Assembly (NCBI GenBank): GCA_015057715.1 | Contig: SVDS01000028.1 | Span: 1 to 40,763 of the forward strand | DNA: 40,763 bases | Direction of reading: 5' to 3' | Source of the DNA: Paenibacillaceae bacterium | GTDB lineage: Bacteria; Bacillota; Clostridia; Lachnospirales; Lachnospiraceae | In this document: positions 1,680-18,254 of the stretch, piece after piece | Layout: each line of letters opens with the position of its first letter | How positions within the stretch are numbered: the first letter of the stretch is position 1 | Made by a program: the position numbers and the translations under genes | The notes under the pieces: generated by a model | Database searches by the model: none | What the model saw: only the letters and a program-made list of their open reading frames with translations | What the model was told of the DNA's origin: nothing

Positions 1680-2405
1680 TCATACAAATCTTTCCTTCAA
1701 AAGGGCAGCTATTAACCCTTCCACGCTTTTTTCTTCTACTTCAATGGGCAGACCCGGTTCTTTGATATCCCCCAGCTGATGGGCGTCTGAATTTTGTAGG
1801 ATCACGCAGCGCTCAAGATATGGATTCTGTCTGACCAGTTCAGGAAGATTGTTTAAATTTCTCACTTCTGCCGCCATAAAACGGCTGTCGGGCGGTACGA
1901 AACCCAGATTTGACAACAGGCTGTTGGCGTTTTTGTCCAAATGAGCAGGAAACATAACACCGTCAAAGGAACGGACCAGGTCCCAAAGTCCATCAAAGGA
2001 TATCTCTGTGGAGTTAATCAGAAGATTTTCAAACGTCCCTGCTGCTTCGTCTTCCTTATTATATATAAATTGATTCCCAAATATTGCCACATTATTAGGA
2101 AATGGGATCAGCTTCTTCTCCACATACGCATCGAATTCCATGGCTTTTGACAGCGTTTTAAAGAGACACACCGCATGTACCTCCTCTGACGTACAAAGCT
2201 CCATACCGGGAATTGCAAGAATCCCCAACTCCTCTGCAAAATGCAAAACAGCGGGACAGTTCTTGCAGGAATTGTGGTCTGTCACCGCAATCACTTCAAG
2301 TCCTTTTAAGGCTGCCATCCCTACGATATTGCCAGGTGTCATATCGTCATCACCGCAGGGAGATAAGCAGGAATGAATATGGAGGTCATATTCAAGCGTC
2401 TTCAT
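1680..2405 (-). CDS. PHP-domain metal-dependent phosphoesterase
   Basis: This 241-aa protein shows the metal-binding motifs of the PHP superfamily: HIHSCLSPCGD near the N-terminus, VTDHNS, a GMEL...VHAVCLF segment, PAHLDKNA and NSDAHQ near the C-terminus. PHP enzymes hydrolyse phosphoesters such as histidinol phosphate, nucleotides or DNA 3' ends; the substrate here is unknown. An in-frame TTG at 2423 is possible, but ATG 2405 has the better Shine-Dalgarno (AAAAAAGG) and fits the PHP domain start. The start overlaps the stop of the upstream DRTGG gene by 14 bases, so translation is probably coupled. Extra cysteines (SPCGD and CKNC) sit near the metal motifs. The context ties it to hydrogenase regulation, but its role there is not known. 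Confidence 0.85.
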   Translation of the reverse strand: MKTLEYDLHIHSCLSPCGDDDMTPGNIVGMAALKGLEVIAVTDHNSCKNCPAVLHFAEELGILAIPGMELCTSEEVHAVCLFKTLSKAMEFDAYVEKKLIPFPNNVAIFGNQFIYNKEDEAAGTFENLLINSTEISFDGLWDLVRSFDGVMFPAHLDKNANSLLSNLGFVPPDSRFMAAEVRNLNNLPELVRQNPYLERCVILQNSDAHQLGDIKEPGLPIEVEEKSVEGLIAALLKERFV

Positions 2406-2736
2406 GGGAAAGCCTTTTTTCAATCAGCAGAGCTGCTTCAAAAATAGGAAGCCCGGTCTTCATTACTGTAATATTCTGTTCGATTGCCTTTTGTTTTGCG
2501 GCCTCGTCAGGTGCCACACCCTCTGCAAGGATCACACAGGCGGCATCCGTTAGAGACGCAACAGCAAGGGTGTTCATATTCCCCATAACAGTCACCCATG
2601 CACAGCCCTCAGGTGCTTTACCCATGGCAATGCTTAATAAATCACAGCAAAATGGCTTTGTAATGCTTCTGTCCGTTCTCTCACCTACATGAATCGTCTC
2701 AAATTCTCCAGTATCAATCAGTTCCCTTATCGTCAT
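2392..2736 (-). CDS. DRTGG-domain protein (second of two in the operon)
   Basis: This 114-aa alpha/beta protein is of the DRTGG family. It has a conserved-type GERTDRSITKPFCCDLLS segment, an internal VTVMGNMNTLAVA and AACVILAEG, and a C-terminal ITVMKTGLPIFEAALLI. DRTGG domains occur alone or fused to CBS or phosphotransacetylase modules and are thought to be regulatory or ligand-binding; no catalytic residues are obvious. The chosen start ATG 2736 has a GGGGAG site; the longer frame from 2763 has none that is clearly better. It overlaps the preceding hydrogenase-like gene by 23 bases and the following PHP gene by 14, so the three are tightly coupled. It is related to the DRTGG gene at the head of the same operon. 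Confidence 0.8.
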   Translation of the reverse strand: MTIRELIDTGEFETIHVGERTDRSITKPFCCDLLSIAMGKAPEGCAWVTVMGNMNTLAVASLTDAACVILAEGVAPDEAAKQKAIEQNITVMKTGLPIFEAALLIEKRLSHEDA

Positions 2737-4126
2737 TTTGATTTCTCCCCTCTTTCCTGTCAAGCTGGTTCATTTCATCAGAAATCCTTACTATATAAGA
2801 AGTCATGGCTCTAAATTTACCGTAGCTGTCTCCATCCCCCTCCTCAATATCAGCTGCCAGTCTGGCAACCTCCTTTGTCAGCTTATGAACATTATCCCGG
2901 AGGAAATAGATGCAGTCCGACTCCGCGGCTTCCCCTCTGACAATATCTTCTGCCAGTGCCTTACAGGTGGGAGCACCGCAGGAACCGCAGTCCAGTCCCG
3001 GAAATTTTTTCAATAGCCGTTCTACCTGATTCAGCCTTGCAAAGCTTTCCATCATGGTGTCACCCAGGTGAAATACCGGCTCATACTGGACCATACTGGT
3101 CCATCTGACAAGTTCTTCCCCTTCTGATTCCATATGACTTCTGGCCACAGGCATATATTTGCGCAGACGCTTTAATTTTACCTCTGCTACATAAGGATTT
3201 TCAACGGTAAGAACCCCTCCGACGCAGCCGCCGTTACAGGCATTTAACTCCACAAATTTTAAATTGGTAAATTTCTGGTCTTCCATATCCTCCAGAACCC
3301 GTATGACATTCTCAATCCCGTCTGCCGCCAGATAATCCTCTGTAAAAAGACCGCTTGCTTCTCCTCCGCTTCTTCCCCAGCTGACGCCGATTTTCCCCGA
3401 GGTCCCGATCTCCGGCGGTTCGTCTCCCACCGCTTTCATGCAGGAAAGAAGCCGTGGATAGACGTCCTTAATGGCAAGGACTTTATCCACTTCACTGTGA
3501 TCTGTTCCCAGGGGAGCACGGGCATAAGTCACCTTTGACGGGCATGGAGAAATAAATATGATCCCGATCTTCTCCCTGGGCAGTCCCGTCTTTTCCATAG
3601 CTCTTCTCACTGCAAGTATGGCAGCCACCTCAACCGGCGGATTAAGCGGCAGAAGATTGGGAATTAAATTAGGAAAACGAACGCGGATGAGCCGTACCAC
3701 CGAAGGGCAGGCTGTACTGATTACCGGAAGCTTATCCGGATTCTTGCTTAAATACCCCCTGGTTGCCTCACTGACCAGTTCTGCTGCCGCGCTCACTTCA
3801 AATACATCATCGAATCCCATAAGCAGCAGTGCATTGAGCACAATGTTCACATCATCTAAGTTATTAAACTGGCTGTACAAAGATGGTGCCGGCAGGGCAA
3901 CCGTGTATTCAAACTGCTTTAAATCCTCCATGGTATCGTAAATGGCATGTTTGGCATGATGAGGGCATACACGGATGCACTCACCGCAGTCAATACAGAA
4001 TTTACTGTTAATCTGTGCTTTTTTATTTCTGACCCTGATCGCCTGGGTGGGGCAGCGCTTAATGCAGTTAATGCAGCCCATGCAGAGATCCTCATCAAGT
4101 CTTACAGAATGATAAAATTTATCCAA
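2714..4126 (-). CDS. [FeFe]-hydrogenase-like iron-sulfur protein, probably sensory (group D-like)
   Basis: This 470-aa protein starts with TTG at 4126 behind GAGGTG. Two ferredoxin-type [4Fe-4S] motifs lie at C15-C18-C21-C25 and C44-C47-C50-C54. An H-cluster domain follows with L1 STACPSV (C140), L2 SPCPSK (C195) and L3 ELNACNGGCVGG near residue 300, so all four cubane-ligand cysteines are present. Compared with TSCCP of catalytic enzymes, the proton-relay cysteine is alanine (A139). A C-terminal CGSCGAPTC...C region adds another probable [4Fe-4S] site. There is no PAS domain and no histidine kinase domain. The operon also encodes an RsbT/W-like ATPase and two DRTGG proteins, which argues for signalling rather than bulk H2 turnover. 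The group D assignment follows the known TamHydS type and is an inference from motifs. Confidence 0.8.
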   Translation of the reverse strand: MDKFYHSVRLDEDLCMGCINCIKRCPTQAIRVRNKKAQINSKFCIDCGECIRVCPHHAKHAIYDTMEDLKQFEYTVALPAPSLYSQFNNLDDVNIVLNALLLMGFDDVFEVSAAAELVSEATRGYLSKNPDKLPVISTACPSVVRLIRVRFPNLIPNLLPLNPPVEVAAILAVRRAMEKTGLPREKIGIIFISPCPSKVTYARAPLGTDHSEVDKVLAIKDVYPRLLSCMKAVGDEPPEIGTSGKIGVSWGRSGGEASGLFTEDYLAADGIENVIRVLEDMEDQKFTNLKFVELNACNGGCVGGVLTVENPYVAEVKLKRLRKYMPVARSHMESEGEELVRWTSMVQYEPVFHLGDTMMESFARLNQVERLLKKFPGLDCGSCGAPTCKALAEDIVRGEAAESDCIYFLRDNVHKLTKEVARLAADIEEGDGDSYGKFRAMTSYIVRISDEMNQLDRKEGRNQNDDKGTD

Positions 4127-4162
4127 TGGCTCACCTCTTTTAGCAATCCATATTTTTTGCGG

Positions 4163-4582
4163 CTACAGATTCACCACCATTCGAATGGTGGTTCCTTCTC
4201 CTATCACCGTATGTATCTCCATCTCATCGGAATACTTTTTCATATTGGGCAGTCCCATTCCCGCACCGAAACCAAGGGAGCGAACCGCATCCGGAGCAGT
4301 GGAATATCCAGCCTGCATGGCAAGATCAATATCCGGAATACCGGGACCCACATCTTCTAAAACCATCTCAATCCGTTCTGTTGATATATGTACCGTAATC
4401 ACCCCGCCTTTGGCGTGTATTACCATATTGATCTCTCCTTCATACATGGCAATGGCAACCTTGCGAACGGCTTCCGGTGTAACACCCATTTTTTTCAGTT
4501 TGCTCTTCACATCGCTGCTGGCCTCTCCCGCTCTTGTAAAATCATCCGGAGAAATCGTATAATGAAACGTAATCACATCCAT
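4163..4582 (-). CDS. RsbT/RsbW-like GHKL ATPase (putative serine kinase or anti-sigma-type switch protein)
   Basis: This 139-aa protein is essentially one HATPase_c domain. It has the N box (YEGEINMVIHA), the G1 box (VGPGIPD) and the G2 box (LGFGAGMGLPNMKK). It lacks a dimerisation/phosphoacceptor-His domain and transmembrane segments, which resembles RsbT/RsbW/SpoIIAB-type serine kinases rather than a two-component histidine kinase. It follows the DRTGG gene after 2 bases, with its GGAGGTG site inside that gene's end, and precedes the hydrogenase-like sensor. No STAS anti-anti-sigma partner is encoded in the window, so its phosphorylation target is unknown; the DRTGG proteins are the nearest candidates by context only. 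Confidence 0.85.
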   Translation of the reverse strand: MDVITFHYTISPDDFTRAGEASSDVKSKLKKMGVTPEAVRKVAIAMYEGEINMVIHAKGGVITVHISTERIEMVLEDVGPGIPDIDLAMQAGYSTAPDAVRSLGFGAGMGLPNMKKYSDEMEIHTVIGEGTTIRMVVNL

Positions 4583-4584
4583 AA

Positions 4585-4932
4585 TTAAATCGCACCTCCG
4601 TGTAGTCCTGCCTCATAGAGCATTCCGCAGGCAGAAAACATGCGGTGCCCGGTGGACAGAAGAATAATCCCCCTCTCAGCCGCCATCTGGAGCATGGCTT
4701 CATCTGGCTTTTTCCCTCTTACAAACACGATGCACACAATATCAAGCATTTCAGCAGTCCGAACCACCTGGGGGTTGCATAGTCCTGTGAGCAGTACAGA
4801 ATGATCCTTTGAATAAGCAAGCACATCACTCATCATGTCAGAACCGCAGGCGCTTTTCACCTCTTCAGACAGATGCTCCTCACCAACCAGCACTTTTGCA
4901 CCCAGTATTTTCCTGATATCTTCGACTGTCAT
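4585..4932 (-). CDS. DRTGG-domain protein (first gene of the operon)
   Basis: This 115-aa protein has the DRTGG-type fold signature: an N-terminal MTVEDIRKILGAKVL, then SACGSDMMSDVLAY, VLLTGLCNPQVVRTAEML, VCIVFVRGKKPDE and a C-terminal GIILLSTGHRMFSACGMLYEAG. Start ATG 4932 is preferred over ATG 4950 because GGAGGAAAAGG lies immediately upstream of it. It heads the minus-strand operon, diverging from the HydABC operon across a roughly 210-base intergenic region. Stand-alone DRTGG proteins are recurrent neighbours of clostridial hydrogenase genes. No enzymatic activity is predicted; a regulatory or nucleotide-sensing role is an inference. Confidence 0.8.
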   Translation of the reverse strand: MTVEDIRKILGAKVLVGEEHLSEEVKSACGSDMMSDVLAYSKDHSVLLTGLCNPQVVRTAEMLDIVCIVFVRGKKPDEAMLQMAAERGIILLSTGHRMFSACGMLYEAGLHGGAI

Positions 4933-4989
4933 ATGGCCCTTTTCCTCCATCCATTCACGCTATTCACACAATTCAAGACATTATTGATA

Positions 4990-4995
4990 ATTATA
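4990..4995 (-). promoter_or_regulatory. Putative sigma-A promoter -10 for the DRTGG/hydrogenase-like operon
   Basis: The minus strand reads TGATATAAT here, an extended -10 (TGn + TATAAT), about 58 bases before the chosen start of the first DRTGG gene. No good -35 is visible at 17 bases (TACACT). Confidence 0.5.
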
Positions 4996-5091
4996 TCATA
5001 AATAGTGCCTCAAGTGTATAAATTTCCCACGTAATGTTTGTTATTTTTTTGTCGAATCTTGATTAAAACTATAGATTTTTTCTCAATAACA

Positions 5092-5100
5092 TGATAAAAT
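5092..5100 (+). promoter_or_regulatory. Putative extended -10 promoter for the hydABC operon
   Basis: TGATAAAAT matches an extended -10, ending 41 bases before the hydC start codon. The -35 region is weak. The divergent intergenic region (4933-5141) is AT-rich and holds both promoters. I saw no convincing Rex operator in it. Confidence 0.4.
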
Positions 5101-5141
5101 ATCAGTTACATTGCATAAGCAACATTGAAGGAGGTTATCAA

Positions 5142-5636
5142 ATGACTTGTAAAAAACAAGGCGTCCAGTTTAACGGGACAAAAGAGCAGGAAGTTGCTTT
5201 GAAAGAAATGATTTCCCAGCTCAAAGATACAAAAGGATCACTTATGCCTATCATGCAGAAGGCACAGGAGATCTATGGTTATCTTCCAATTGAAGTTCAG
5301 ACCATAATTTCTGATGAAACGGGTATTCCCCTTGAGAAGATTTATGGTGTTGCCACTTTTTATGCCCAGTTTGCACTTCAGCCTAAGGGCAAATATCAGG
5401 TATCTGTCTGTCTTGGAACCGCATGCTACGTAAAAGGCTCCGGTGACATTTTCCATAAAATTGAGGATATTCTTGGCATCACCAACGGAGAATGCACTCC
5501 GGATGGAAAGTTTTCTTTAGACTCCTGCCGCTGCGTAGGCGCTTGCGGTCTGGCTCCTGTCATGATGGTGAACGGAGAAGTTTACGGAAGACTGACAGTC
5601 GATGATGTTCCAGGTATTTTAGCCAAATACGAATAA
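5142..5636 (+). CDS. hydC: Electron-bifurcating [FeFe]-hydrogenase subunit HydC (NuoE-like)
   Basis: This 164-aa NuoE/NDUFV2-like protein has an N-terminal helical region and a thioredoxin-like [2Fe-2S] domain with ligands in CLGTAC and CRCVGAC. In HydABC complexes it passes electrons between the flavoprotein HydB and the hydrogenase. Start ATG 5142 (MTCKKQ) has an AAGGAGGT site 6 bases upstream; the longer frame from 5091 has no such site. It is the first gene of a five-gene plus-strand operon (hydC, ATPase, [2Fe-2S] protein, hydB, hydA). HydABC couples NADH and reduced ferredoxin oxidation to H2 formation, or the reverse, in the cytoplasm. Confidence 0.9.
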   Translation: MTCKKQGVQFNGTKEQEVALKEMISQLKDTKGSLMPIMQKAQEIYGYLPIEVQTIISDETGIPLEKIYGVATFYAQFALQPKGKYQVSVCLGTACYVKGSGDIFHKIEDILGITNGECTPDGKFSLDSCRCVGACGLAPVMMVNGEVYGRLTVDDVPGILAKYE

Positions 5637-5648
5637 TTACATACGCTT

Positions 5649-6206
5649 ATGATGACAGAGATTTCTTTAAATATTTTGGATGTGGCAGAGAACTCCACAC
5701 GGGCAGGCGCCAGCCTGGTTACCATTCTTGTTTCTGTGAATACCTCTACAGATGAATTGACCGTCCAGCTATCTGACGACGGCTGCGGAATGACAAAAGA
5801 ACAGTTAGAGAATGTAACAGACCCGTTTTTTACCACCCGCCAGACCAGAAAGGTTGGTCTTGGTATTCCGTTTTTCAAATATGCAGCGGAATCCACGGGA
5901 GGGAGTTTCTCCATCGAATCGAAACCGGGTATCGGAACGAAGACAACTGCTGTGTTCGGACTCTCCCACATAGACCGAATGCCCTTAGGTGACATGAACA
6001 GTACCATTCAGACACTGATCACCTGCCATCCGGATACAGATTTTCTCTATATCTATCGTTATAACGAAGCGTCCTTTGAGCTGGATACAAGACTCTTTCG
6101 GGAGATTCTGGGTGAGATTGCCTTTGACACACCTGAGGTAGCCGCTTATATAAAGGAATATTTATTTGAAAACAAATTGGAGACTGATGGAGGCGCGGTC
6201 ATTTAG
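5649..6206 (+). CDS. GHKL ATPase (histidine-kinase-like) of the hydABC operon
   Basis: This 185-aa cytoplasmic protein carries a HATPase_c domain in its first 120 residues. It has an N box (NILDVAENSTRAGA), a G1 box (SDDGCGM), an F box (DPFFTTR), a G2-like KVGLGIPFFKYAAE and a GTKTTAVF end. There is no HisKA dimerisation helix, no receiver and no membrane segment. Such orphan ATPases are recurrent between nuoE- and nuoF-like genes in clostridial hydrogenase operons, with no settled function. It starts 13 bases after hydC; an ATG 3 bases downstream is equally possible, and neither has a strong ribosome binding site, suggesting coupling to hydC. The C-terminal 65 residues match nothing I recognise. 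Confidence 0.8.
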   Translation: MMTEISLNILDVAENSTRAGASLVTILVSVNTSTDELTVQLSDDGCGMTKEQLENVTDPFFTTRQTRKVGLGIPFFKYAAESTGGSFSIESKPGIGTKTTAVFGLSHIDRMPLGDMNSTIQTLITCHPDTDFLYIYRYNEASFELDTRLFREILGEIAFDTPEVAAYIKEYLFENKLETDGGAVI

Positions 6207-6230
6207 ACCCGTCAGAATTGGAGGATAAAC

Positions 6231-6608
6231 ATGAAGACTCTTGAAGAATTAAAAGCAATTCGGGAGAAGATGCAGAGTCAGGTCAGCATGCGCGGAGAAG
6301 ATCACGCACGTACCCGTATTTTAGTTGGTATGGCAACATGCGGAATTGCAAGCGGAGCAAGACCTGTTCTTAATAAATTGTCAGATCTGGTTCAGGAGAA
6401 CCACATGACAGATCGTTTTTCTGTTACCCAGACAGGTTGTATCGGTTTATGCCAGTACGAGCCTATCGTAGAAGTTTTAGAACCGGGCAAAGAAAAAGTA
6501 ACCTACATAAAAATGACAGCGGAGAAGGCAGAGGAAGTTTATAAAGAGCATCTTATTGGCGGACACGTTGTTCAAAACTACACATTATCATCTGCGGATA
6601 TTAAATAA
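6231..6608 (+). CDS. Thioredoxin-like [2Fe-2S] ferredoxin-type protein of the hydABC operon
   Basis: This 125-aa protein resembles the thioredoxin-like [2Fe-2S] domain found at the N-terminus of HydB/NuoF and in NuoE. The cysteines visible are C37 (ATCGIASGA) and C70/C74 (GCIGLC). The fourth ligand expected at C-x4-C is glycine (G42), so either the cluster has a non-cysteine ligand or the site is degenerate. About 30 N-terminal residues precede the domain. The ribosome binding site is GGAGG, 6 bases before ATG. It sits 12 bases upstream of hydB in the same direction, so it is probably an electron carrier or assembly partner of the bifurcating hydrogenase. The exact role is not established. 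Confidence 0.8.
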   Translation: MKTLEELKAIREKMQSQVSMRGEDHARTRILVGMATCGIASGARPVLNKLSDLVQENHMTDRFSVTQTGCIGLCQYEPIVEVLEPGKEKVTYIKMTAEKAEEVYKEHLIGGHVVQNYTLSSADIK

Positions 6609-6620
6609 GGAGGAATCAGG

Positions 6621-8408
6621 ATGTATCGTTCACATGTATTGGTTTGCGGCGGTACCGGATGTACTTCCTCCGGAAGCCAGCAGATTATGGTTAAATTAAG
6701 AGATGAATTAGGAAATCAGGGTCTTTCTGAAGAGGTATCCGTAGTACAGACAGGTTGTCATGGCCTTTGTGCTCTGGGACCCATTATGATTATCTACCCA
6801 GATGCAACTTTTTATGCAATGGTAAAAGAAGAGGATATTCCGGAAATTGTTAGTGAACACTTATTAAAGGGACGTCCGGTTGAACGTCTTCTTTATAACG
6901 AAACAGTAACTCCTAACGGAATCAAAGCTTTAAGTGATACCGATTTTTACAAAAAGCAGCACAGAATTGCTTTAAGAAACTGCGGTGTTATTAATCCGGA
7001 AGAAATCGAAGAATACATCGGTACCGGCGGATATCAGGCACTTGGTAAGGTTCTTACCGAGATGACTCCTGATGACGTAATCCAGACTCTTTTAGACAGT
7101 GGATTAAGAGGACGCGGCGGCGCTGGCTTCCCTACCGGAATGAAGTGGAAACTGGCAAAGCAGAATGATGCAGACCAGAAGTACGTATGCTGTAACGCAG
7201 ACGAAGGTGACCCAGGCGCATTCATGGATCGTTCCGTATTAGAGGGAGATCCTCATGCATTACTGGAAGCCATGACTATCGCAGGTTATGCAATCGGCGC
7301 ATCCCAGGGCTTTATCTACGTTCGTGCTGAGTACCCTATCGCTGTTGATCGTCTTAAAATCGCCATTGCACAGGCCAGAGAGATGGAACTTTTAGGTGAT
7401 GATATCTTCGGAACAGGCTTTTCCTTTGATATTGATCTCCGTCTGGGTGCAGGTGCATTCGTATGCGGCGAGGAAACTGCATTGATGGTATCCATCGAAG
7501 GTAACCGTGGAGAACCAAGACCAAGACCTCCGTTCCCGGCTCAGAAAGGTTTGTTCGGCAAACCAACCATCTTAAACAATGTTGAAACTTATGCAAATAT
7601 CCCACAGATCATCTTAAACGGCCCGGAATGGTTTGCAGCCATGGGTACAGAGAAATCCAAGGGAACAAAAGTATTCGCTTTAGGCGGCAAGATCCACAAC
7701 ACCGGTCTGGTAGAAGTTCCTATGGGTACCACACTGCGTGAAATCATCGAGGAAATCGGCGGCGGCATTCCTAACGGAAAGAAGTTTAAAGCTGCTCAGA
7801 CCGGCGGACCTTCCGGCGGCTGTATACCTACCGAGCACTACGATATTCCAATTGACTATGACAACCTTCTTGCAATCGGCTCCATGATGGGTTCCGGCGG
7901 TCTGATTGTAATGGATGAAACCGACTGTATGGTTGATATCGCAAAATTCTTCTTAGAGTTCACCGTAGAGGAATCCTGTGGTAAATGTACTCCATGCCGT
8001 ATCGGTACCAAGCGTATGCTTGAGATACTTGACAAAGTTACAAAAGGACAGGCAAAACCGGAAGATATTGACCGTTTAGAGGAACTGTGCTACTACGTGA
8101 AAGCCAACTCTGCATGCGGACTTGGTCAGACAGCTCCAAACCCGGTACTTTCTACCTTAAAGTACTTCCGTGACGAATACAATGCCCACATTTATGACAA
8201 GAAATGTCCGGCTGGTGTATGTAAGGCACTTCTTTCCTACTACATCGATGCTGACAAGTGCAAGGGCTGTACACTTTGTGCAAGAAACTGTCCTGCTAAC
8301 GCCATTACCGGCTCCGTAAAGAACCTGCATGTGATTGATCCTGAGAAATGTATCAAGTGCGGCGTTTGTATGGAGAAATGTAAATTCGGCGCTGTCTATA
8401 AAAAATAA
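6621..8408 (+). CDS. hydB: Electron-bifurcating [FeFe]-hydrogenase subunit HydB (NuoF-like flavoprotein)
   Basis: This 595-aa protein has the full HydB domain order. First is an N-terminal thioredoxin-like [2Fe-2S] domain (CGGTGC, GCHGLC). The NuoF core follows with FMN/NADH motifs (GRGGAGFPTGMKWK, CNADEGDPGAF, GAGAFVCGEETAL) and an SLBB region. Next is a [4Fe-4S] site (ESCGKCTPCRIG plus a downstream Cys). A C-terminal 2x[4Fe-4S] ferredoxin domain ends the protein (CKGCTLCARNC and CIKCGVCMEKC). In the family HydB binds NAD(H) and FMN and is the site of flavin-linked electron bifurcation with ferredoxin. The AAGGAGGA ribosome binding site and 12-base spacing place it in the hyd operon. Its length and C-terminal ferredoxin domain match bifurcating hydrogenases and exclude a complex I subunit. 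Confidence 0.95.
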   Translation: MYRSHVLVCGGTGCTSSGSQQIMVKLRDELGNQGLSEEVSVVQTGCHGLCALGPIMIIYPDATFYAMVKEEDIPEIVSEHLLKGRPVERLLYNETVTPNGIKALSDTDFYKKQHRIALRNCGVINPEEIEEYIGTGGYQALGKVLTEMTPDDVIQTLLDSGLRGRGGAGFPTGMKWKLAKQNDADQKYVCCNADEGDPGAFMDRSVLEGDPHALLEAMTIAGYAIGASQGFIYVRAEYPIAVDRLKIAIAQAREMELLGDDIFGTGFSFDIDLRLGAGAFVCGEETALMVSIEGNRGEPRPRPPFPAQKGLFGKPTILNNVETYANIPQIILNGPEWFAAMGTEKSKGTKVFALGGKIHNTGLVEVPMGTTLREIIEEIGGGIPNGKKFKAAQTGGPSGGCIPTEHYDIPIDYDNLLAIGSMMGSGGLIVMDETDCMVDIAKFFLEFTVEESCGKCTPCRIGTKRMLEILDKVTKGQAKPEDIDRLEELCYYVKANSACGLGQTAPNPVLSTLKYFRDEYNAHIYDKKCPAGVCKALLSYYIDADKCKGCTLCARNCPANAITGSVKNLHVIDPEKCIKCGVCMEKCKFGAVYKK

Positions 8409-8425
8409 TGGAGGGAGATTGTATC

Positions 8426-10171: not shown

Positions 10172-10180
10172 TTATTTTTT

Positions 10181-10214
10181 AAACTCCTTCTGCCTGGTCA
10201 GAAGGAGTTTTTTT
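10181..10214 (+). terminator. Intrinsic terminator of the hydABC operon
   Basis: A perfect 12-bp stem (AAACTCCTTCTG / CAGAAGGAGTTT, loop CCTGGT) runs into a T tract, 10 bases past the hydA stop. Confidence 0.95.
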
Positions 10215-10242
10215 GTCATAAAAAGGAAATGAAATGAAAAAT

Positions 10243-10271
10243 GCATGGATCGTCTCAAATTCTCCATACTA
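10243..10271 (+). promoter_or_regulatory. Candidate forespore sigma-G promoter for the CotF-like pair
   Basis: GCATG at 10243-10247 and CATACTA at 10265-10271 are separated by 17 bases, matching the Bacillus-type sigma-G pattern (GHATR / CATWMTA). The expected start point would fall within the GGAGG site at 10277-10281, which is unusually tight and lowers confidence. Confidence 0.35.
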
Positions 10272-10290
10272 TGACTGGAGGTGATGAGAC

Positions 10291-10464
10291 ATGAGCCCAA
10301 AGGAATTAAATTATATTGAAGACGCTCTCGGACATGAAAATTTCTTAAAAACCCAGTGCCAGGATGCTGCACAAAATTTACAGGATCCTGAATTAAAAGC
10401 CTGTGCACAGCAGCTGCAGCAAAAACACCAGCAAATTTTCGATAACATCTATAATTTAGTGTAA
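10291..10464 (+). CDS. Small CotF-like spore protein (57 aa)
   Basis: A short ORF of 57 codons reading MSPKELNYIEDALGHENFL..., rich in Gln and helix-forming residues, preceded by GGAGGTG 7 bases before ATG. It contains the KELNYIEDALGHE / LQDPELKACAQQL type of sequence found in the N-terminal helical part of CotF-like spore coat proteins, and its partner gene follows 12 bases later. CotF family proteins are helical ferritin-like bundles deposited in the spore coat. The two small genes may together correspond to one longer CotF protein in other species. Function beyond that is inferred. Confidence 0.75.
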   Translation: MSPKELNYIEDALGHENFLKTQCQDAAQNLQDPELKACAQQLQQKHQQIFDNIYNLV

Positions 10465-10476
10465 GGAGGAAGCAAA

Positions 10477-10722
10477 ATGGACGATAAGTGTATTATGGAA
10501 AACTTACTCAACGTCACAAAGGGTGCCTGCGATTTATATCTGCACGGAACCATCGAGTCCCCTACCATGAATGTACACCAGGCATTTGACAATGCGTTAA
10601 ATGATACGCTGTGCATGCAGGATGATATCTATAAAAAGATGTCCTCCAAGGGATGGTATACCACAGAACAGGCAGAACAGCAAAAAATTTCCAAAATAAA
10701 GAATCAGTTTGCAGGAATGTAA
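10477..10722 (+). CDS. CotF-family spore coat protein
   Basis: This 81-aa protein carries the CotF-like core: ENLLNVTKGACDLYLHGTIE, then NVHQAFDNALNDTLCMQDDI, then KMSSKGWY near the end. The C-terminal QAEQQKISKIKNQFAGM tail is typical of the group. The ribosome binding site is AAGGAGGA, 7 bases before ATG, overlapping the end of the preceding 57-codon gene, so the two are co-translated. The family forms part of the spore coat; its presence shows that the organism is a spore former. The pair sits as an island between two hydrogenase operons and has no evident functional link to them. Confidence 0.85.
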   Translation: MDDKCIMENLLNVTKGACDLYLHGTIESPTMNVHQAFDNALNDTLCMQDDIYKKMSSKGWYTTEQAEQQKISKIKNQFAGM

Positions 10723-10737
10723 GCAGATTTATTATTA

Positions 10738-10772
10738 AAAAAGTCCCTGCCGGATTATAATCTGGCAGGGTT
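10738..10772 (-). terminator. Terminator of the sensory/group B hydrogenase operon (possibly bidirectional)
   Basis: Stem CCCTGCC / GGCAGGG (10745-10751 and 10764-10770), extended inwards by GAT/ATC. On the minus strand it is followed by ACTTTTTT. It lies between convergent genes and may also end the CotF-like transcript. Confidence 0.8.
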
Positions 10773-10796
10773 ACTTATATCTTACTGTTATCTTAT

Positions 10797-12251
10797 TTAA
10801 TTGTTTCTATGCATCATAACTGCTTCAAGACCCTGATTTTTCAGATTCTCGTGCACCATTCTGGAATCGGCCTTACCAAGAAGTAAATCCCTTGCCTTTT
10901 TGGCTTCTCCCTCACTCTTATGCTTGCTTGGGCCCCCAACGCAGCCCCCCATACAGGCCATTCCTTCCACAAAGTCTGCTGGAAGCTTTCCAACCTTTAA
11001 AAGCATCAGCGCTTTCTTACATTCTGCTGCACCGTTGCATTTCATGACCTCAATATCTGTATTTTCTCCTGATTCTTTGAGACATTCTAACACTGCAGCG
11101 GTAACTCCGCCTCCATTGCCAAACCGCTTTCCAAATATGGAACCTGCCTGATATGTATTCTCCTCCGGCTCCAGCTCTACTCCCTTTGCCACCATCATGG
11201 CATGAGCCTCTCCAAGGGTTAGCACGTAATCCGCATTTCCCTTCACATTTAAATCCAGAGCTTCACTTTTCTTGGCAATACAAGGCCCGATAAAGACAGC
11301 GATGGTTTCCGGATCTTTCTCCTTCAGCATTCGGGATACTGCGCACATGGGAGAAACAGTCGTGGACATATTGTCCAAAAGCATGGGGTAATGCTGCTTA
11401 ATCATATTTACAAATGCAGGACAACAGGAAGTAGTCATCTTCTTCCCTTCCTTATAAGCCTCAGCCCATTCCTCAGCTTCAGCAGCGGCTGTTAAATCAC
11501 CCCCAAGGGCAACCTCAACCATATCTTCAAATCCAATCTTCTTAAGGGCGGTTCTCCAGCTTGCCATGGTGATATCCGGTCCATACTGCCCCTCTGTGGC
11601 AGGCGCCACCATAGCCACTACTTTTTTCCCGGCCTTAATCAGATTAATTACGTCTACCATGAAGGTTTTTGATCCAATTGCGCCAAATGGGCAGCTGTGA
11701 ATGCACGCTCCGCACTGAATGCATTTGCTTTCATCGATTACAACGATTCCGTTATCATCCATGGTAATTGCATCTACCGGACAACTTCTTTTACAGGGGC
11801 GAGTTAAATCTGCAATTGCATTATAAGGACATGCCTGAGAACATTTTCCGCATTCCTTACACTTATCAGGATCGATATGGGCACGGTCATGACTCATGGA
11901 AATGGCTCCGAAATTACAGGAATTCTGGCAGGCCTTACCCATACAGAGCTGGCAGTTATCTGTTACTACATATCTGGCAATGGGGCATCCCTCACAGGCA
12001 GAATTAATTACCTGCACTACATTTTTGGTGTCTCTGCCACTGGGACAGAACCCCTCTGCCAGCCTGACTCTCTCTCTGATAATCTCCCTCTCCCTGTAAA
12101 TACAGCACCGAAACTGTGCCTTTGGTCCCTGAATCATATGATAGGGAATCTCATCCCTTTTCTGTTCCAATGTACCTTCCCAGGCAAGCTTCGCTACTTC
12201 ATTTAAAACCTGATGCTTGATGCGAAGTAATGTTGCATCATTCGTTACCAT
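10797..12251 (-). CDS. [FeFe]-hydrogenase, group B-like (monomeric, ferredoxin-rich)
   Basis: This 484-aa protein has a Cys-rich N-terminal half containing CEGCPIARYVVTDNC, CQLCMGKACQNSC, and ferredoxin-type motifs CKECGKCSQACP and CIQCGACIHSCP, so several [4Fe-4S] clusters are expected. The H-cluster domain has L1 TSCCPAF, L2 GPCIAKKSE and L3 EGMACMGGCVGGP. It differs from HydA by having no N-terminal [2Fe-2S] domain and by Phe instead of Trp in L1; these features match group B enzymes such as Clostridium pasteurianum CpIII. Start ATG 12251 is chosen because AAGGAGGA lies 7 bases upstream; the GTG at 12275 does not have this. It is the last gene of the operon with the PAS sensor and phosphatase. 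The probable role is ferredoxin-linked H2 turnover; direction is unknown. Confidence 0.9.
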   Translation of the reverse strand: MVTNDATLLRIKHQVLNEVAKLAWEGTLEQKRDEIPYHMIQGPKAQFRCCIYREREIIRERVRLAEGFCPSGRDTKNVVQVINSACEGCPIARYVVTDNCQLCMGKACQNSCNFGAISMSHDRAHIDPDKCKECGKCSQACPYNAIADLTRPCKRSCPVDAITMDDNGIVVIDESKCIQCGACIHSCPFGAIGSKTFMVDVINLIKAGKKVVAMVAPATEGQYGPDITMASWRTALKKIGFEDMVEVALGGDLTAAAEAEEWAEAYKEGKKMTTSCCPAFVNMIKQHYPMLLDNMSTTVSPMCAVSRMLKEKDPETIAVFIGPCIAKKSEALDLNVKGNADYVLTLGEAHAMMVAKGVELEPEENTYQAGSIFGKRFGNGGGVTAAVLECLKESGENTDIEVMKCNGAAECKKALMLLKVGKLPADFVEGMACMGGCVGGPSKHKSEGEAKKARDLLLGKADSRMVHENLKNQGLEAVMMHRNN

Positions 12252-12302
12252 ATCGTTCCTCCTTGAAGCTTCCACATAACGTGGCTGTGTGAATATTCTC
12301 TA

Positions 12303-13484
12303 TTAATAATAAGTAACTGTAACCGTCTTCCCCATCTCTTCCACCGCATGTTTCAGCTGCTCTACAAGATTTTGCCGGATTCCCAAATCAAAGGGAAGCC
12401 CCGGATTCTGGTAAGCGCTGTTTATTGCTTTCCCCACATACAGCTTTAATTCCGTACAGTCCTCAATAATCATCTTTGCTACCATGGATGCGCCATTCGG
12501 TTTATCCAGTTCCAGGAAAAATTCCTCCGTTACTGATTCATTTTTCACATACCGCTTTAAGAGTTTTAAAACCCGGTTTAAAGTCAGTACCCCTTCTGTG
12601 ACCAGTTCAATGCCGTCGATGTAAGCCACAGGCGGTAAATCCGGATCGTTATACTCAAGGGATACCGTCAGTTTCTTATCCATGGTCCTGGAAACAATAT
12701 TGGCACTGGTTCCTCCGCAGACAATCCTCTTGGTGGTATCATCTCCGGATAAGAAATCCGTTACCATACAAACATCATCTTCCGGGTCTTTAGGCGGGCC
12801 TGTCATTAAATGAACCGGTTTGCTGTCGATTATCCGCATAACAGCAACGGTTGTATCATCTCCGGGCCGGTACTGGTAAAGTTCATCACACGCTCTGCAT
12901 AACGCATTGGCCAGACGAACAGCCGATATAGTCAAACGGTACTGTTTTACCGCATAAGCAGCCACATCTTCCCAGAGCCAGCCAAAATTTAAAAGCTGCC
13001 CCACACCTGCATGAATGGTTCCGTCACTAAGAAGAATCAAAGCATCTCCTTTTTTTACCCGGAACCGGTATTCATTAATTTTCTTATCCCGTATCACCCT
13101 CATACTGTGTGGAATGGGAACCAGACTCCCATCCCTGATAAAGATACAGCCCGGGTTATCAAACTCCACCAGATAGGCATCTCCATTGTGGAATACCTGA
13201 AGAATACTGAAGGTGGAATATGCAATCTGTCTCACCTGACAGACAGGAAGGGTCTCTACAATGGTCTCCACACACTCTTCCAGGGTCGCTCCGTTTAAAA
13301 ACATGGTGCCCAGTATCTTAGAGGTCATGGTTGCAAGTATGTTTGCCTTTACTCCGCTTCCCATACCGTCGGCAAGAATCATAATGTTGGAGTCCTCCGT
13401 ATGGAGGAGCTCCACCTTATCCCCGCAAAGTACTTCACTGAATTTATTTAAGCTTTTATAAGCAACGTCAACGGTAACTCCCAT
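12303..13484 (-). CDS. SpoIIE-type PP2C serine phosphatase linked to the sensory hydrogenase
   Basis: This 393-aa protein has an N-terminal PPM/SpoIIE phosphatase domain (about residues 1-215) with metal-binding ILADGMGSG and the later ILLSDGTIHAGVG and GDDTTVAVMRI motifs. The C-terminal 170 residues (VCGGTSANIVSRTMDKKL onward) form a separate domain without a clear name. No membrane segment is visible. Its ATG overlaps the stop of the PAS-hydrogenase gene by one base (TAATG), indicating translational coupling. Phosphatase-linked sensory hydrogenases are the recognised C3 type, so H2 or redox state sensed by the neighbour probably sets the activity of this phosphatase. The phosphoprotein substrate is not known. 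Confidence 0.9.
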   Translation of the reverse strand: MGVTVDVAYKSLNKFSEVLCGDKVELLHTEDSNIMILADGMGSGVKANILATMTSKILGTMFLNGATLEECVETIVETLPVCQVRQIAYSTFSILQVFHNGDAYLVEFDNPGCIFIRDGSLVPIPHSMRVIRDKKINEYRFRVKKGDALILLSDGTIHAGVGQLLNFGWLWEDVAAYAVKQYRLTISAVRLANALCRACDELYQYRPGDDTTVAVMRIIDSKPVHLMTGPPKDPEDDVCMVTDFLSGDDTTKRIVCGGTSANIVSRTMDKKLTVSLEYNDPDLPPVAYIDGIELVTEGVLTLNRVLKLLKRYVKNESVTEEFFLELDKPNGASMVAKMIIEDCTELKLYVGKAINSAYQNPGLPFDLGIRQNLVEQLKHAVEEMGKTVTVTYY

Positions 13485-15217
13485 TATTTAACCTCGCTTT
13501 CGCTGCCCTCATCTAACAGAGACTTGCACAGCTTGGTCAGTGTGGTTTTCGTTTCAGCCGTAGTCTCTCCCAGAAGCCCTGCGATCTCCTGGGCCACCAT
13601 CATCTGCTTATGAATAACCTTTTGAGCCAGATCGATGGTCTCTAACTTCTTTTCGTACTCCTGTCTGGCCTGTTCTTCTTCCTTTGTAATATCGATAAAC
13701 GTGGCCAGCACCACATCTTCCTTGTTTACATAAACAATGTTCTGAAGAGTAGAAATTCTATATTCTCCATATGTGACCTTTTTGCCATGAATTTTCTGAT
13801 GGGTATCATACACCCACTGAAAATCAGTGGTATCAATCAGTTCATACAGATACATGGTTAAAGCTTCCTGTCTGGTCTTGCCAAAATACTTCTCACCAAC
13901 TGCAGAATACTCCAGAATCTTCATCTCCTTATCAACAATGAGCACAATGTTGGGAGACGTCTCCATAACAAGATTGGATAAAGATTCCGCCTTTTCATGC
14001 ATAAACGGGATGCACATATTTAATTCCGCTTTTTTCTGAATAACAGCTACGGCCTTCTCTCTGCATGTGGAATAACCGCATGCTCCGCAGTTTAGTTCAT
14101 CTTCCGGTCTTGTCTTTCCTGTCTTCTTCAAAATCTCCTGAATCTGGGCTTCCGTAGGAACAATATCCCTGGGAGCACGGTTTAAGAAACGCTTTCCAAA
14201 GGTAAGGGAATCGAAGATCTCCTGAATTTCTTCATCGGGAACCCCGTCTTTTTCAATGGTATCTTCCATATCCAGCTTTATCCTGAATCTGGATACATGC
14301 TCATGATCTGCAGCAGGCCCCTTGATACAGCCGCCTGAGCACATATTCATCTCAATGAAGCACCCCGTAATCTCACCCCGGAGCATGCTTTCACAAAGGT
14401 CAATACAGTTGCGGCAGCCATGGACATAGAACTTCCGGTATCCATCCCGTTCGGCCTCGGTTGCCAGCACAGAGCTAACGATTCCATTGGTAACCGGATA
14501 GAGACGGTTCACTCTTGGGTTCATATGAGCAAATGGGATATCCTCGCAATCTTCTATGGTAATCTCTTCCTGTGCAAGCCACCGTTCTATATCATTGAAA
14601 TTTAAGACAGCATCAATATAATCCCCGTGCCTTAAATCCTCAGCTTCTTTTTTCTTGGCAATACAGGGCCCCAGAAAGACCACTTTGGTATCCCTTCCAA
14701 ATTCTTCCTTTAACATCTTGCCATGGGCTACCATAGGCGATACTACCGGCGCCAGATAAGGGATCAGTGCGGGGTAATATATTTCAATTAAATCATTAAC
14801 ACTGGGACAGCAGGTTGTGATTATATTCTCCATACTGCCTTCCTTTAAAAGTCTGGTATACTCAGCAGTTACAACTGCCGCCCCCTCTGAGGTTTCCCGC
14901 ACATCGGCAAATCCCAGCTTTCTAAGGGCGCCGTTTATCTGTCCTGCCGTTTTATAGTTTAACAGCCCCATATAGGATGGAGCCAGTGAAATCACAGTTT
15001 TATAACCAATGTCAAGAAATCCTTTAACAAGATCCAGATCACTGATAAGCGTTTTGGCAGACTGAGGACAAACCTGCATGCATTTTCCGCATAAAATGCA
15101 CTTATCAGACATGATTTCTGCCCGTTCATCTTTAATCATGACCGCTTTGACTTCACAGTTACGAACACATTTATAGCAGTGCTTGCATTTGGTCGCCTTG
15201 AAATCAATAATTCCCAT
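13484..15217 (-). CDS. hydS: PAS-containing sensory [FeFe]-hydrogenase (group C3-like, HydS)
   Basis: This 577-aa protein has two ferredoxin motifs (CKHCYKCVRNC, CILCGKCMQVC) and an H-cluster domain (L1 TTCCPSV, L2 GPCIAKKKE, L3 EMNMCSGGCIKGP). A further [4Fe-4S] region follows (CGACGYSTC...C), then a PAS domain at about residues 420-530 (SPNIVLIVDKEMKILEYS, GEYRISTL, DITKEEE) and a C-terminal coiled coil. Membrane segments and kinase motifs are absent. It is encoded 2 bases after a small [2Fe-2S] protein and is coupled to a SpoIIE-type phosphatase. In known homologues the H-cluster senses H2 or redox and the PAS domain relays the signal. Unlike the group D-like protein in this window, it keeps both L1 cysteines, so it may retain catalytic competence. 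Confidence 0.9.
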   Translation of the reverse strand: MGIIDFKATKCKHCYKCVRNCEVKAVMIKDERAEIMSDKCILCGKCMQVCPQSAKTLISDLDLVKGFLDIGYKTVISLAPSYMGLLNYKTAGQINGALRKLGFADVRETSEGAAVVTAEYTRLLKEGSMENIITTCCPSVNDLIEIYYPALIPYLAPVVSPMVAHGKMLKEEFGRDTKVVFLGPCIAKKKEAEDLRHGDYIDAVLNFNDIERWLAQEEITIEDCEDIPFAHMNPRVNRLYPVTNGIVSSVLATEAERDGYRKFYVHGCRNCIDLCESMLRGEITGCFIEMNMCSGGCIKGPAADHEHVSRFRIKLDMEDTIEKDGVPDEEIQEIFDSLTFGKRFLNRAPRDIVPTEAQIQEILKKTGKTRPEDELNCGACGYSTCREKAVAVIQKKAELNMCIPFMHEKAESLSNLVMETSPNIVLIVDKEMKILEYSAVGEKYFGKTRQEALTMYLYELIDTTDFQWVYDTHQKIHGKKVTYGEYRISTLQNIVYVNKEDVVLATFIDITKEEEQARQEYEKKLETIDLAQKVIHKQMMVAQEIAGLLGETTAETKTTLTKLCKSLLDEGSESEVK

Positions 15218-15219
15218 GA

Positions 15220-15459
15220 TTAAAGCCTCCCCAGAATTTCTTTATCAAAAAACTCCTTTGTATCTTCCGGTTTTAATGAATAGATCTGACCGTCAACCGT
15301 TACGCAGACTCCATTCACACAATTTCCGCTGCAAAAGGAACCATTTAAATCCACCTGCTCTTCCAAATGCTTCTCTCTCACCAGATTCTGAAGCTGGGCA
15401 ATGATCTCTCTGGACCCTTTTAAATGACATGCACTTCCTATGCATATTGTTACTCTCAT
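15220..15459 (-). CDS. Small thioredoxin-like [2Fe-2S] protein (NuoE C-terminal type)
   Basis: This 79-aa protein is a minimal [2Fe-2S] thioredoxin-like domain with four cysteines in the family spacing: CIGSAC near the N-terminus and CSGNC in the middle. Start ATG 15459 follows GGAGGGAG; the longer frame to 15492 would add residues without a better site. It heads the sensory operon and ends 2 bases before the PAS-hydrogenase start, whose ribosome binding site lies inside this gene. It probably delivers electrons to, or reports redox state for, the sensory hydrogenase; this is an inference from context and from HydC-like domains. Confidence 0.85.
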   Translation of the reverse strand: MRVTICIGSACHLKGSREIIAQLQNLVREKHLEEQVDLNGSFCSGNCVNGVCVTVDGQIYSLKPEDTKEFFDKEILGRL

Positions 15460-15509
15460 GAATATTCTCCCTCCGAAATAAATCCCCTGCATGAACTGCC
15501 TTTTCGACC

Positions 15510-17318: not shown

Positions 17319-17333
17319 AGGCCCCTTCCTCCT

Positions 17334-18164
17334 TTATTTACCGGCAAGTTTCGTAATGGATGCCGTAATCAGCTTTTTAAACAGCGGTGCTACCCGGTCA
17401 GCCGTCTCCTGAACTTCTGCATGGCTTAAAGGCTGGTCGATTATACCGCATGCCATATTGGTGATACAGGAAATACCGCAAACCTTCATACCCATATGGT
17501 TGGCAGCAAGCGCCTCACAGGCTGTACTCATTCCAACTGCATCCGCTCCCAATATCCGGCACATCTGCACTTCTGCTGGAGATTCATAGGCGGGTCCTGT
17601 CAGCTGCAGATAAATTCCCTCCTGCAGTTCAATTCCCTCTTCCTTTGCCGCTTCTTTAATTACCGCTCTCAGCTCCTTGCGGTAAATATCGCTCATATCC
17701 GGGAATCTGGTTCCCAGCTCCCCAATGTTGGTTCCAATTAGCGGAGAAGGAACAAATGTGGCAATGTGATCCTTAAGAAGCATAAAATCACCCGGTTTGA
17801 ATTCCTTGTTCACCCCACCACAGGCATTGGTCAAAAATAAAGTCTTTGCACCCATAAGTCCCATAAGTCTCGTTGGGAGAACTACATCCGTCATAGGATA
17901 TCCTTCATAAAAATGAACCCGCCCCTGCATAATGACTACTGGAACTTTATTTACATAACCAAAAATGAATCTTCCTTTATGACCGGCTACGGTTGAAACC
18001 GGAAATCCCTCAATGTCTTTATAATCTATGGTGGCAGCTACTTCAATCTCCTCCGCATATTCCCCAAGTCCGGAACCAAGAATAAGGGCAACCTCGGGAA
18101 CAAAATCAGTTTTCTCCCGCACACTTTTTAAACAGCTTAAAAGCTTCTCATATACATCATTCAT
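17334..18164 (-). CDS. Purine nucleoside phosphorylase (trimeric PNP-I type)
   Basis: This 276-aa protein has the PNP-I motifs: LILGSGLGEYAEEI (phosphate loop), STVAGHKGRF, GRVHFYEGYPM, LTNACGGVN, GPAYESPAEVQM, VGMSTACEALAANH and CITNMACG. The Glu of YESPAE and the Asn of ITNMA fit binding of 6-oxopurines, so inosine, guanosine and their deoxy forms are the likely substrates, releasing hypoxanthine or guanine plus ribose-1-phosphate. Together with adenine deaminase it channels purines to hypoxanthine. The start ATG at 18164 follows AAAGGAG. The 5' leader carries a hairpin and a dyad over the -10, but no purine riboswitch signature. Confidence 0.95.
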   Translation of the reverse strand: MNDVYEKLLSCLKSVREKTDFVPEVALILGSGLGEYAEEIEVAATIDYKDIEGFPVSTVAGHKGRFIFGYVNKVPVVIMQGRVHFYEGYPMTDVVLPTRLMGLMGAKTLFLTNACGGVNKEFKPGDFMLLKDHIATFVPSPLIGTNIGELGTRFPDMSDIYRKELRAVIKEAAKEEGIELQEGIYLQLTGPAYESPAEVQMCRILGADAVGMSTACEALAANHMGMKVCGISCITNMACGIIDQPLSHAEVQETADRVAPLFKKLITASITKLAGK

Positions 18165-18187
18165 ATTGTTTTTTCTCCTTTCACAAT

Positions 18188-18211
18188 CCTGACAGAGTCA
18201 CGCTCTTCAGG
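18188..18211 (-). repeat. Hairpin in the 5' leader of the purine nucleoside phosphorylase mRNA
   Basis: CCTGA + AGAG pairs with CTCT + TCAGG (9 bp with one bulged C, 5-base loop). It lies between the predicted start point and the ribosome binding site. It has no T run, so it is not a terminator; it may stabilise the mRNA. Confidence 0.5.
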
Positions 18212-18228
18212 TGTTACAAGTATAACAC
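18211..18228 (-). promoter_or_regulatory. Extended -10 promoter with overlapping operator-like dyad
   Basis: The minus strand carries TGTTATACT (extended -10, hexamer at 18219-18224). The same bases lie inside a perfect dyad GTGTTA-N6-TAACAC, a likely repressor site for the pnp-ade operon. Confidence 0.5.
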
Positions 18229-18254
18229 ATTTCCATAAGATTCTGCATAATATT

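Follow-up and report, generated by a model that had tools for sequence, protein, structure and literature searches.

A group D [FeFe]-hydrogenase operon co-inherited with HydD and HydE of HydABC, and its possible role in gating the enzyme

Introduction

Group D [FeFe]-hydrogenases turn over H2, and the output of their signal has been posed as a question in the literature (PMC8163306). That question is raised in concrete form by a stretch of 40,763 nucleotides (contig SVDS01000028.1 of assembly GCA_015057715.1; hereafter the window) from a Lachnospiraceae genome of 5.4 Mb, in which a group D-type gene lies beside the operon for a bifurcating HydABC hydrogenase. To what, then, might this protein report? 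Comparisons across the family and the phylum reveal a seven-gene block whose members are kept or lost largely together: the group D sensor, a SpoIIAB/RsbW-like kinase (KIN), two DRTGG proteins (DR1 and DR2), and a PHP-domain phosphoesterase, joined by HydE and HydD inside the hydCBA operon. The block probably works as one functional unit acting on HydABC.

Organization of the locus

Positions 1680-15492 hold three adjoining transcription blocks. The first, on the minus strand, carries DR1, KIN, the group D hydrogenase, DR2, and PHP in that order. The second is divergent from it on the plus strand and carries HydC, a HydE-like GHKL ATPase, a small thioredoxin-like protein resembling HydD, HydB, and HydA. 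The genes of these two blocks are as follows.

1680-2423, minus strand: PHP-domain metal phosphoesterase, final gene of the group D operon (PF02811, 34.5 bits; likely Met start near 2405)
2392-2763, minus strand: DRTGG protein 2, DR2 (PF07085, 21.2 bits, under the cut-off of 25.2; DR1 profile, 38.4 bits, E 3.9e-9)
2714-4126, minus strand: group D-type [FeFe]-hydrogenase (PF02906, Fe_hyd_lg_C, and PF04060, FeS; no PAS match)
4163-4582, minus strand: KIN, SpoIIAB/RsbW-like GHKL kinase (PF13581, 42.3 bits; spIIAB, 61.8 bits, equivalog cut-off 135)
4585-4950, minus strand: DRTGG protein 1, DR1, which leads the group D operon (DRTGG Pfam match and fold)
5091-5636, plus strand: HydC (PF01257, 170.7 bits)
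5649-6206, plus strand: HydE-like stand-alone GHKL ATPase (PF02518, 53.3 bits)
6231-6608, plus strand: HydD-like subunit with an N-terminal helix (residues 4-19) and a thioredoxin-like domain (PF01257, 26.3 bits)
6621-8408, plus strand: HydB without a cis N-terminal helix; signature residues Arg3, Lys83, and Arg85 (PF01512, PF10589)
8408-10171, plus strand: HydA, group A3 (NCBI "A6"; NF040763, 904.6 bits, cut-off 765)

The HydA match above the model cut-off, together with the presence of HydB and HydC, places the second operon among group A3 HydABC enzymes. An earlier note on this DNA had listed four H-cluster proteins (group A3, group B, a group C type with a PAS domain, and a group D type), two GHKL ATPases, and a SpoIIE-type phosphatase, and all were recovered by profile searches. 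Its two DRTGG proteins and PHP protein are present as well; DR2 falls under the Pfam cut-off, yet the DR1 profile finds it. The range given for the locus (2392-15459) covers most of the named genes but leaves the PHP gene mostly outside. Among the three small proteins described as [2Fe-2S] proteins, the one encoded at 6231-6608 lacks the first of four ligand cysteines.

Co-inheritance of seven genes with HydABC

Gene distribution was followed in three samples. The family survey comprises 150 genomes (tallied as 150 genera by the survey itself), and a genome is called D-positive when its group D match exceeds 400 bits. A second sample consists of 80 named group D loci, some of them cut by contig ends. 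The far sample consists of 40 group D loci taken from across the phylum, in most cases a single locus per family, none longer than 20 kb.

Within the family, HydE occurs in 35/35 D-positive genomes and in 0/115 others (at E 1e-20). DR1 and KIN are each found in 34 of the 35, the exception being G097, where a contig ends just upstream of the group D gene, and wherever KIN matches strongly (34 genomes), it adjoins the group D gene. The same adjacency is seen in 79/80 named loci and 40/40 phylum loci, and thus exceeds chance. HydE and HydD are both present in every D-positive genome with a readable hydABC locus (34/34; G109 has none) and in all 64 named loci that show HydB, counted per locus. Neither is found in any of 15 D-less hydABC loci, which were taken from the top scores downward (86 family genomes have a HydA match), and second hydABC copies in the D-positive genomes G021, G046, and G033 are also without both. 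One weak, unrelated KIN match (40% identical) was seen in G003.

At the scale of the phylum, ten genes follow one another on a single strand in the order DR1-KIN-D-DR2-PHP-HydC-HydE-HydD-HydB-HydA in 12/40 loci; elsewhere a gene is missing, the order is altered, or the locus is truncated. The divergent arrangement seen in the window is thus likely to be the derived state.

Such patterns might in principle reflect neighborhood only, with genes traveling together by transfer or chance and having no joint function, and the fact that the presence/absence survey covers one family leaves some room for this view. However, HydE and HydD remain with hydABC in three genomes whose group D operon lies on a different contig (G134, G053, and G097), and joint absence of the genes within the D-positive clade is accompanied by a change in HydB, as described below. 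Mere neighborhood is thus highly improbable.

Some loci have peculiarities of their own. In L140, the matches to hydE, hydB, and hydA are each split in two, a pattern that frameshifts or assembly errors would produce. In the far loci L235, L250, L254, and L261 the HydB frames span 539-562 residues (others about 600) with the start of the N-terminal domain intact, and a HydD-like gene lies upstream of HydC.

Loss of the module and apparent exchange of the HydD helix

HydA of the type found in the window was recognized in 37 family genomes, chosen by hand at about 850 bits. Five of these lack group D (G146, G092, G101, G145, and G036), and all five fall inside the D-positive clade of a HydA tree of 52 rows, which omits loci with partial HydA and L115-L117. 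Over the whole tree, outgroups included, the presence of HydE requires seven changes, at least six of which are forced by supported branches; L118 (G092) and L119 (G101) are placed in the D-positive clade by weaker branches. At the thresholds applied, none of the five genomes (of which G146 is only 68% complete) has the group D gene, KIN, DR1, or HydE anywhere, and HydB comes immediately after HydC, with HydD and HydE gone.

In all five cases HydB carries an N-terminal extension that resembles the N terminus of HydD. Local scores against residues 1-30 of the window HydD are 64-81 for these nested HydB proteins, versus a maximum of 19 in 119 other HydB proteins, nearly all of them D-positive. 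In a second comparison, the best scores of the five to HydD helices were 80, 99, 96, 104, and 96; against outgroup HydB the values were 54, 61, 64, 53, and 47, and against D-positive HydB they were 42, 37, 34, 38, and 36. Tree neighbors are among the top or nearly top HydD partners of L114 (L097) and of L113 (L102 together with L171, its counterpart among the named loci). The plain reading of these sequences is that HydD would have become fused to HydB when the module was lost, with its thioredoxin part deleted, although an old cis helix may instead have been retained in some of the cases. A fused gene is a classical sign of physical contact between two proteins.

The HydD-like protein itself keeps three of the four [2Fe-2S] cysteines, Val32 replacing the first, and this position is Val or Ile in 98/98 near and 33/33 far relatives. 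In structural alignments, the model of this protein matches HydB of Thermotoga maritima and Thermoanaerobacter kivui as well as 9mqx_B starting at residue 3-6, which takes in the helix, versus only from residue 23 with HydB of Acetobacterium woodii (7q4v_B). A. woodii is a species with a HydD subunit (PMC6288185). In T. kivui, HydABC and a subunit of the hydrogen-dependent carbon dioxide reductase are described as the only soluble hydrogenases (PMC4320612). Solved structures agree with helix exchange, in that the species with HydD has a HydB to which the helix does not align. Helix 4-19 is modeled at low confidence and the linker is poorly defined (predicted local distance difference test below 50 at residues 19-24), as expected if the HydD helix packs on a partner.

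A residue signature in HydB accompanies these differences. Six HydB columns are conserved in at least 97% of 93 D-positive rows and changed in at least three of the five nested D-less rows, whereas the same screen yields none in HydA or HydC. Random five-row sets of D-positive HydB gave a mean of 0.01 and a maximum of one column over 200 draws, with rows that were not phylogeny-matched. One of the six columns is the start codon, an artefact of where open reading frames begin, leaving five. Position 85 holds Arg in all near (93/93) and all but one far (30/31, the exception having Lys) D-positive rows and in 0/5 nested D-less rows. Together with R3, K83, and R89, R85 flanks the N-terminal thioredoxin-like domain of HydB. 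Outgroup and second-copy HydB were omitted from the screen and restored in the later residue count; the class of second copies (nine rows) includes two D-positive rows below 950 bits.

Several observations weigh against a tightly bound block that acts through the HydD helix. Coupling across the phylum is looser or less well detected, with DR1 missed in 6/40 loci, DR2 in 4/40, and PHP in 6/40, and HydD was undetected in 2/31 far loci with HydB. A second hydABC of G110 has a weak HydD-like gene and no HydE, and its HydB is without the helix, so that helix state follows HydD and not the whole block. For three of the five nested HydB proteins the best-matching HydD helices do not come from the nearest tree neighbors, which makes fusion less certain in these cases, and a more diverged cis helix (scores 13-53) occurs in several outgroup D-less HydB proteins. 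The residues vary in specificity as well: R85 also appears in 2/10 outgroup D-less rows, R3 and K83 (each 124/124 in D-positive rows) persist in 2/5 nested rows, and R89 is retained in 1/5 nested and 7/10 outgroup rows. Finally, A. woodii HydE has been reported outside the active enzyme (PMC3315566).

The group D operon as a candidate signaling route

Group D enzymes are marked by the absence of Cys299, Ser or Thr at the position of Met353, and a C-terminal Cx2Cx4Cx16C motif (PMC8163306). The protein encoded at 2714-4126, whose nearest named match is from Lacrimispora amygdalina (98% identical), has Ala139 and Ser193 at these two positions, the C-terminal motif, and all four H-cluster cysteines, with the ligand cysteines invariant. 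In far group D rows, Ser or Thr occupies position 193 in 38/40 and the listed cysteines are kept in 40/40.

KIN belongs to the GHKL family and has the Glu/Asn N-box and the G1 and G2 boxes of SpoIIAB/RsbW kinases; Glu48, Asn52, and the G-boxes are kept in 113/113 near and 40/40 far relatives. Among NCBIfam models and solved structures it is closest to SpoIIAB, but its score lies so far under the equivalog cut-off that it is not SpoIIAB itself. A second KIN-like open reading frame (188 bits) lies downstream of PHP in one other group D locus, L165.

Both DR proteins belong to the DRTGG domain family by Pfam match and fold. DR1 has an invariant Ser41 in a D-M-M-S motif, and DR2 an invariant Ser44 in D-[LM]-[LM]-S (D-V in one far row), the Ser of DR2 being kept in 110/110 near and 36/36 far relatives. 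Far DR1 rows below 100 bits were excluded from the far residue counts. Set A1 omits L019, L029, and L039, which have in-frame stops, and six more; set A2 holds 67 of 76 usable DR1 relatives and set A3 holds 56 of 64 HydD relatives. Each metal residue of PHP is conserved in 108-110 of the 110 near relatives and in 32-34 of the 34 far ones. PHP was not found in the 6/40 far loci noted above, however, which weakens its case as an obligatory counter-phosphatase. No fusions among genes of the group D module were seen among the relatives listed.

A route from sensor to enzyme can be proposed from these parts. The group D H-cluster protein would read H2 or redox state and alter KIN, which might then phosphorylate the DRTGG proteins on their invariant serine, located where a helix begins; these proteins would stand where a STAS protein stands in a classical partner switch. 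The DRTGG switch and the HydE ATPase could together set whether HydD sits on HydB, and thus how HydABC runs. HydD would be a regulatory subunit supplying in trans the N-terminal helix that D-less HydB proteins carry in cis, with the point of contact between that helix and the N-terminal thioredoxin-like domain of HydB, and PHP, in genomes that have it, may undo or adjust the signal. The comparisons show co-inheritance, joint absence, the pattern of the helix, and the residue signatures; phosphorylation, the direction of control, and dependence on H2 are steps that we infer. A DRTGG phospho-switch with docking of HydD as the working mechanism of the block is a tentative proposal. Equally speculative, if not slightly more so, is the full picture of a bifurcating hydrogenase gated post-translationally by a detachable HydD helix, whose docking is set by the group D protein through a DRTGG-marking kinase and which lineages that lose the sensor hard-wire onto HydB.

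The same genes might instead serve maturation or repair of HydABC, HydE being a chaperone-like GHKL ATPase and the group D protein a scaffold and not part of an H2-responsive switch. A role for HydE in assembly or signaling has been suggested (PMC3315566), the block is strictly tied to one HydABC type, and Pfam finds no DNA-binding protein among the seven genes. Against this stand the D-less genomes, which retain HydABC with a changed helix, the kinase-type Glu/Asn of KIN, and the H2 turnover of group D enzymes (PMC8163306), which together make a maturation role rather unlikely.

The closeness of KIN to SpoIIAB also invites a classical anti-sigma partner switch, in which KIN would bind or modify a sigma-factor antagonist and so control hyd transcription. 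In the window, however, the group D operon leaves no space for a sigma or STAS gene; the gene-order scans of relatives covered window genes only and do not bear on this point. A genome search with PF01740, which did not include the STAS_2 model, gave two STAS matches; one, the sole small protein, adjoins SpoIIAB and the other lies in a 549-residue frame, so that by this search no dedicated STAS antagonist accompanies the module. The 50 fold matches listed for DR1 do not include STAS, a result that excludes nothing. A search for Rex operators gave two matches versus 3.4 expected by chance. An anti-sigma switch is considered improbable.

Two separable units around HydABC

The third transcription block, on the minus strand, encodes a thioredoxin-like [2Fe-2S] protein, a group C sensor with a PAS domain, a SpoIIE-type phosphatase, and a group B hydrogenase.

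10797-12275, minus strand: group B monomeric [FeFe]-hydrogenase (TIGR04105, 609.2 bits, cut-off 450)
12303-13484, minus strand: SpoIIE-type serine phosphatase with a C-terminal domain (PF07228, 54.6 bits)
13484-15217, minus strand: group C (C3-like) PAS-containing sensory [FeFe]-hydrogenase (PF02906, PF04060; PF00989, 25.8 bits, cut-off 22.6)
15220-15492, minus strand: thioredoxin-like [2Fe-2S] protein, which leads the C3 operon (PF01257, 33.1 bits)

The group B assignment follows from a TIGR04105 match above its cut-off. The sensor at 13484-15217 has the PAS domain, C-terminal FeS motif, and phosphatase neighbor of the C3 type. Loss of Cys299 is stated for M2f enzymes (PMC8163306), whereas this protein retains the cysteine pair in TTCCPS; it is therefore filed as group C-like only, the C3 label resting on the PAS domain and the phosphatase neighbor. 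The DG and DD motifs of the phosphatase are kept in 28 rows. Its conserved C-terminal stretch, some 170 residues long (about 225 to 393), matches nothing in Pfam at E 0.001.

Other genes nearby include a spore coat (coat-F-type) open reading frame at 10477-10722 on the plus strand, between hydA and the group B gene (PF07875, 64.3 bits). Beyond the C3 operon, positions 15546-20892 encode adenine deaminase and purine nucleoside phosphorylase, with an NMT1/Thi5-type ABC transporter after them. Three more H-cluster matches lie elsewhere in the source genome (contigs C248, C233, and C4); those on C248 and C4 end at contig ends and may be fragments of one gene.

The earlier note had suggested that one shared phosphoprotein could be the target of both the kinase linked to group D and the phosphatase linked to C3, whose opposite outputs would thereby tune both hydrogenases. 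Of the 150 family genomes, 35 have the group D protein and 32 the C-type sensor, and the phosphatase is found in exactly the same 32. Both modules occur in 25 genomes, group D only in 10, C3 only in seven, and neither in 108, a strong association (p 1.8e-14). Among the 37 genomes with HydA of this type, from which G075, G103, and G109 (D-positive, with partial HydA or none) fall out, the corresponding counts of 25, 7, 3, and 2 give a Fisher p of 0.58, in a sample that affords little power. As far as 37 genomes can tell, each module thus tracks hydABC and not the other module, and co-occurrence was rejected as evidence of direct interaction.

The kinase occurs without the phosphatase in 9/34 genomes (10 counting G097), and the phosphatase without the kinase in 7/32; in the D-less genomes G036 and G145, the C3 sensor and phosphatase lie directly downstream of hydA. 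The strict companions of the kinase are the group D protein, both DRTGG proteins and, within this family, HydE and HydD. The two modules are within about 15 kb of each other in 10/18 genomes that have both on one contig. A C3 sensor is within the flank of 5/80 named group D loci, and a group C-type sensor is present in 5/40 phylum loci. The phosphatase profile finds nothing in the same 40 phylum loci (phosphatases elsewhere in those genomes were not sought).

Proximity and joint presence in 25/35 D-positive genomes do speak for a shared target, and 8/10 revertants of hfsB deletions in Thermoanaerobacterium thermosaccharolyticum had hyd mutations, so that the operons interact (PMC11837493). The revertants support cross-talk between operons, but not a shared phosphoprotein. 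With each module found alone, no association once HydA type is required, no phosphatase in the far loci, and no spare PF01740 STAS protein, the opposed pair on a shared target was rejected, and its probability is put at little more than slight. Both regulatory operons are nonetheless real, conserved, and tied to hydABC; a comparison of gene order across Lachnospiraceae, as the note had proposed, finds the two-operon pattern conserved in part of the family only.

The best explanation of the locus as a whole is that two separable H2-control units surround HydABC, the seven-gene block gating the enzyme through HydD and the second unit (thioredoxin-like protein, C3 sensor, phosphatase, and group B enzyme) perhaps acting as an hfs-like operon with its own target. 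Belief and doubt in this overall account are about evenly balanced.

If the proposed route is correct, KIN, the two DRTGG serines, HydE, and HydD are named as likely output parts of the group D sensor, and R3, K83, R85, and the N-terminal helix as a candidate contact site on HydB. HydD and HydE, the extra genes in a much-studied acetogen operon, thereby gain a concrete proposed role. Because a group D profile matches 167/398 phylum genomes at E 1e-40 (the weakest matches may be group C), the module is relevant to how gut and syntrophic Clostridia turn over H2. No prior account of a group D module with DRTGG, PHP, HydD, or HydE was found in the open-licence literature, which excludes most subscription papers.

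Comparison with known systems

In the SpoIIAB/RsbW partner switch, a GHKL kinase with a Glu/Asn N-box is encoded directly downstream of the gene for a small partner, which carries a serine at a helix start. The group D operon is alike in the N-box of KIN, the DR1 gene directly upstream, and the serine at a helix start; it differs in having a DRTGG protein as the candidate partner instead of STAS, no sigma gene, and a PHP gene. DR1 shares the DRTGG fold with a CBS-DRTGG pyrophosphatase (PDB 3l2b) and AF1212 (PDB 2ioj). At the position of the invariant Ser, as judged by eye, AF1212 has Gln and a CBS-DRTGG protein of the same genome has Glu.

TamHydS of Thermoanaerobacter mathranii (group D, M2e) has the same domain order, the lost Cys299, Ser at Met353, and the C-terminal Cx2Cx4Cx16C. 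Compared by description, it likewise has a bifurcating hydrogenase downstream and a histidine-kinase-like ATPase as its neighbor (PMC8163306, PMC13104023). The window protein differs in having Asn where TamHydS has Leu at the position of Met497 (PMC8163306). An AraC regulator lies beside TamHydS, and the available portions of these accounts mention no DRTGG pair, PHP, or HydD/HydE link (PMC8163306, PMC13104023).

The hyd operon of A. woodii encodes a HydE that resembles ATP-binding domains of histidine kinases and a cofactor-less HydD of about 15 kDa, and the available portions of its descriptions do not connect it with a group D sensor or a kinase (PMC3315566, PMC6288185). HydD and HydE of the window are likened to these by description: a small cofactor-poor subunit, a histidine-kinase-like ATPase, and a HydB without the N-terminal helix. 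HydB of A. woodii begins at the thioredoxin-like domain.

HydS/HydA2 of Ruminococcus albus, from work by Zheng in 2014, reportedly represents an operon type like that of the C3 sensor, phosphatase, and group B enzyme. The hfsABCD operon of Thermoanaerobacterium unites a PAS sensor, a serine phosphatase, and a ferredoxin-linked hydrogenase, all of which are found together in the third block of the window, and hfsB has been hypothesized to be a regulator (PMC11837493). The first gene differs, being a thioredoxin-like [2Fe-2S] protein in the window, whereas HfsA is described otherwise in the available text (PMC11837493). The C3 half of the locus thus resembles a known hfs operon, and the stronger and newer finding is the group D half, with its seven-gene block and the exchange of a helix between HydD and HydB.

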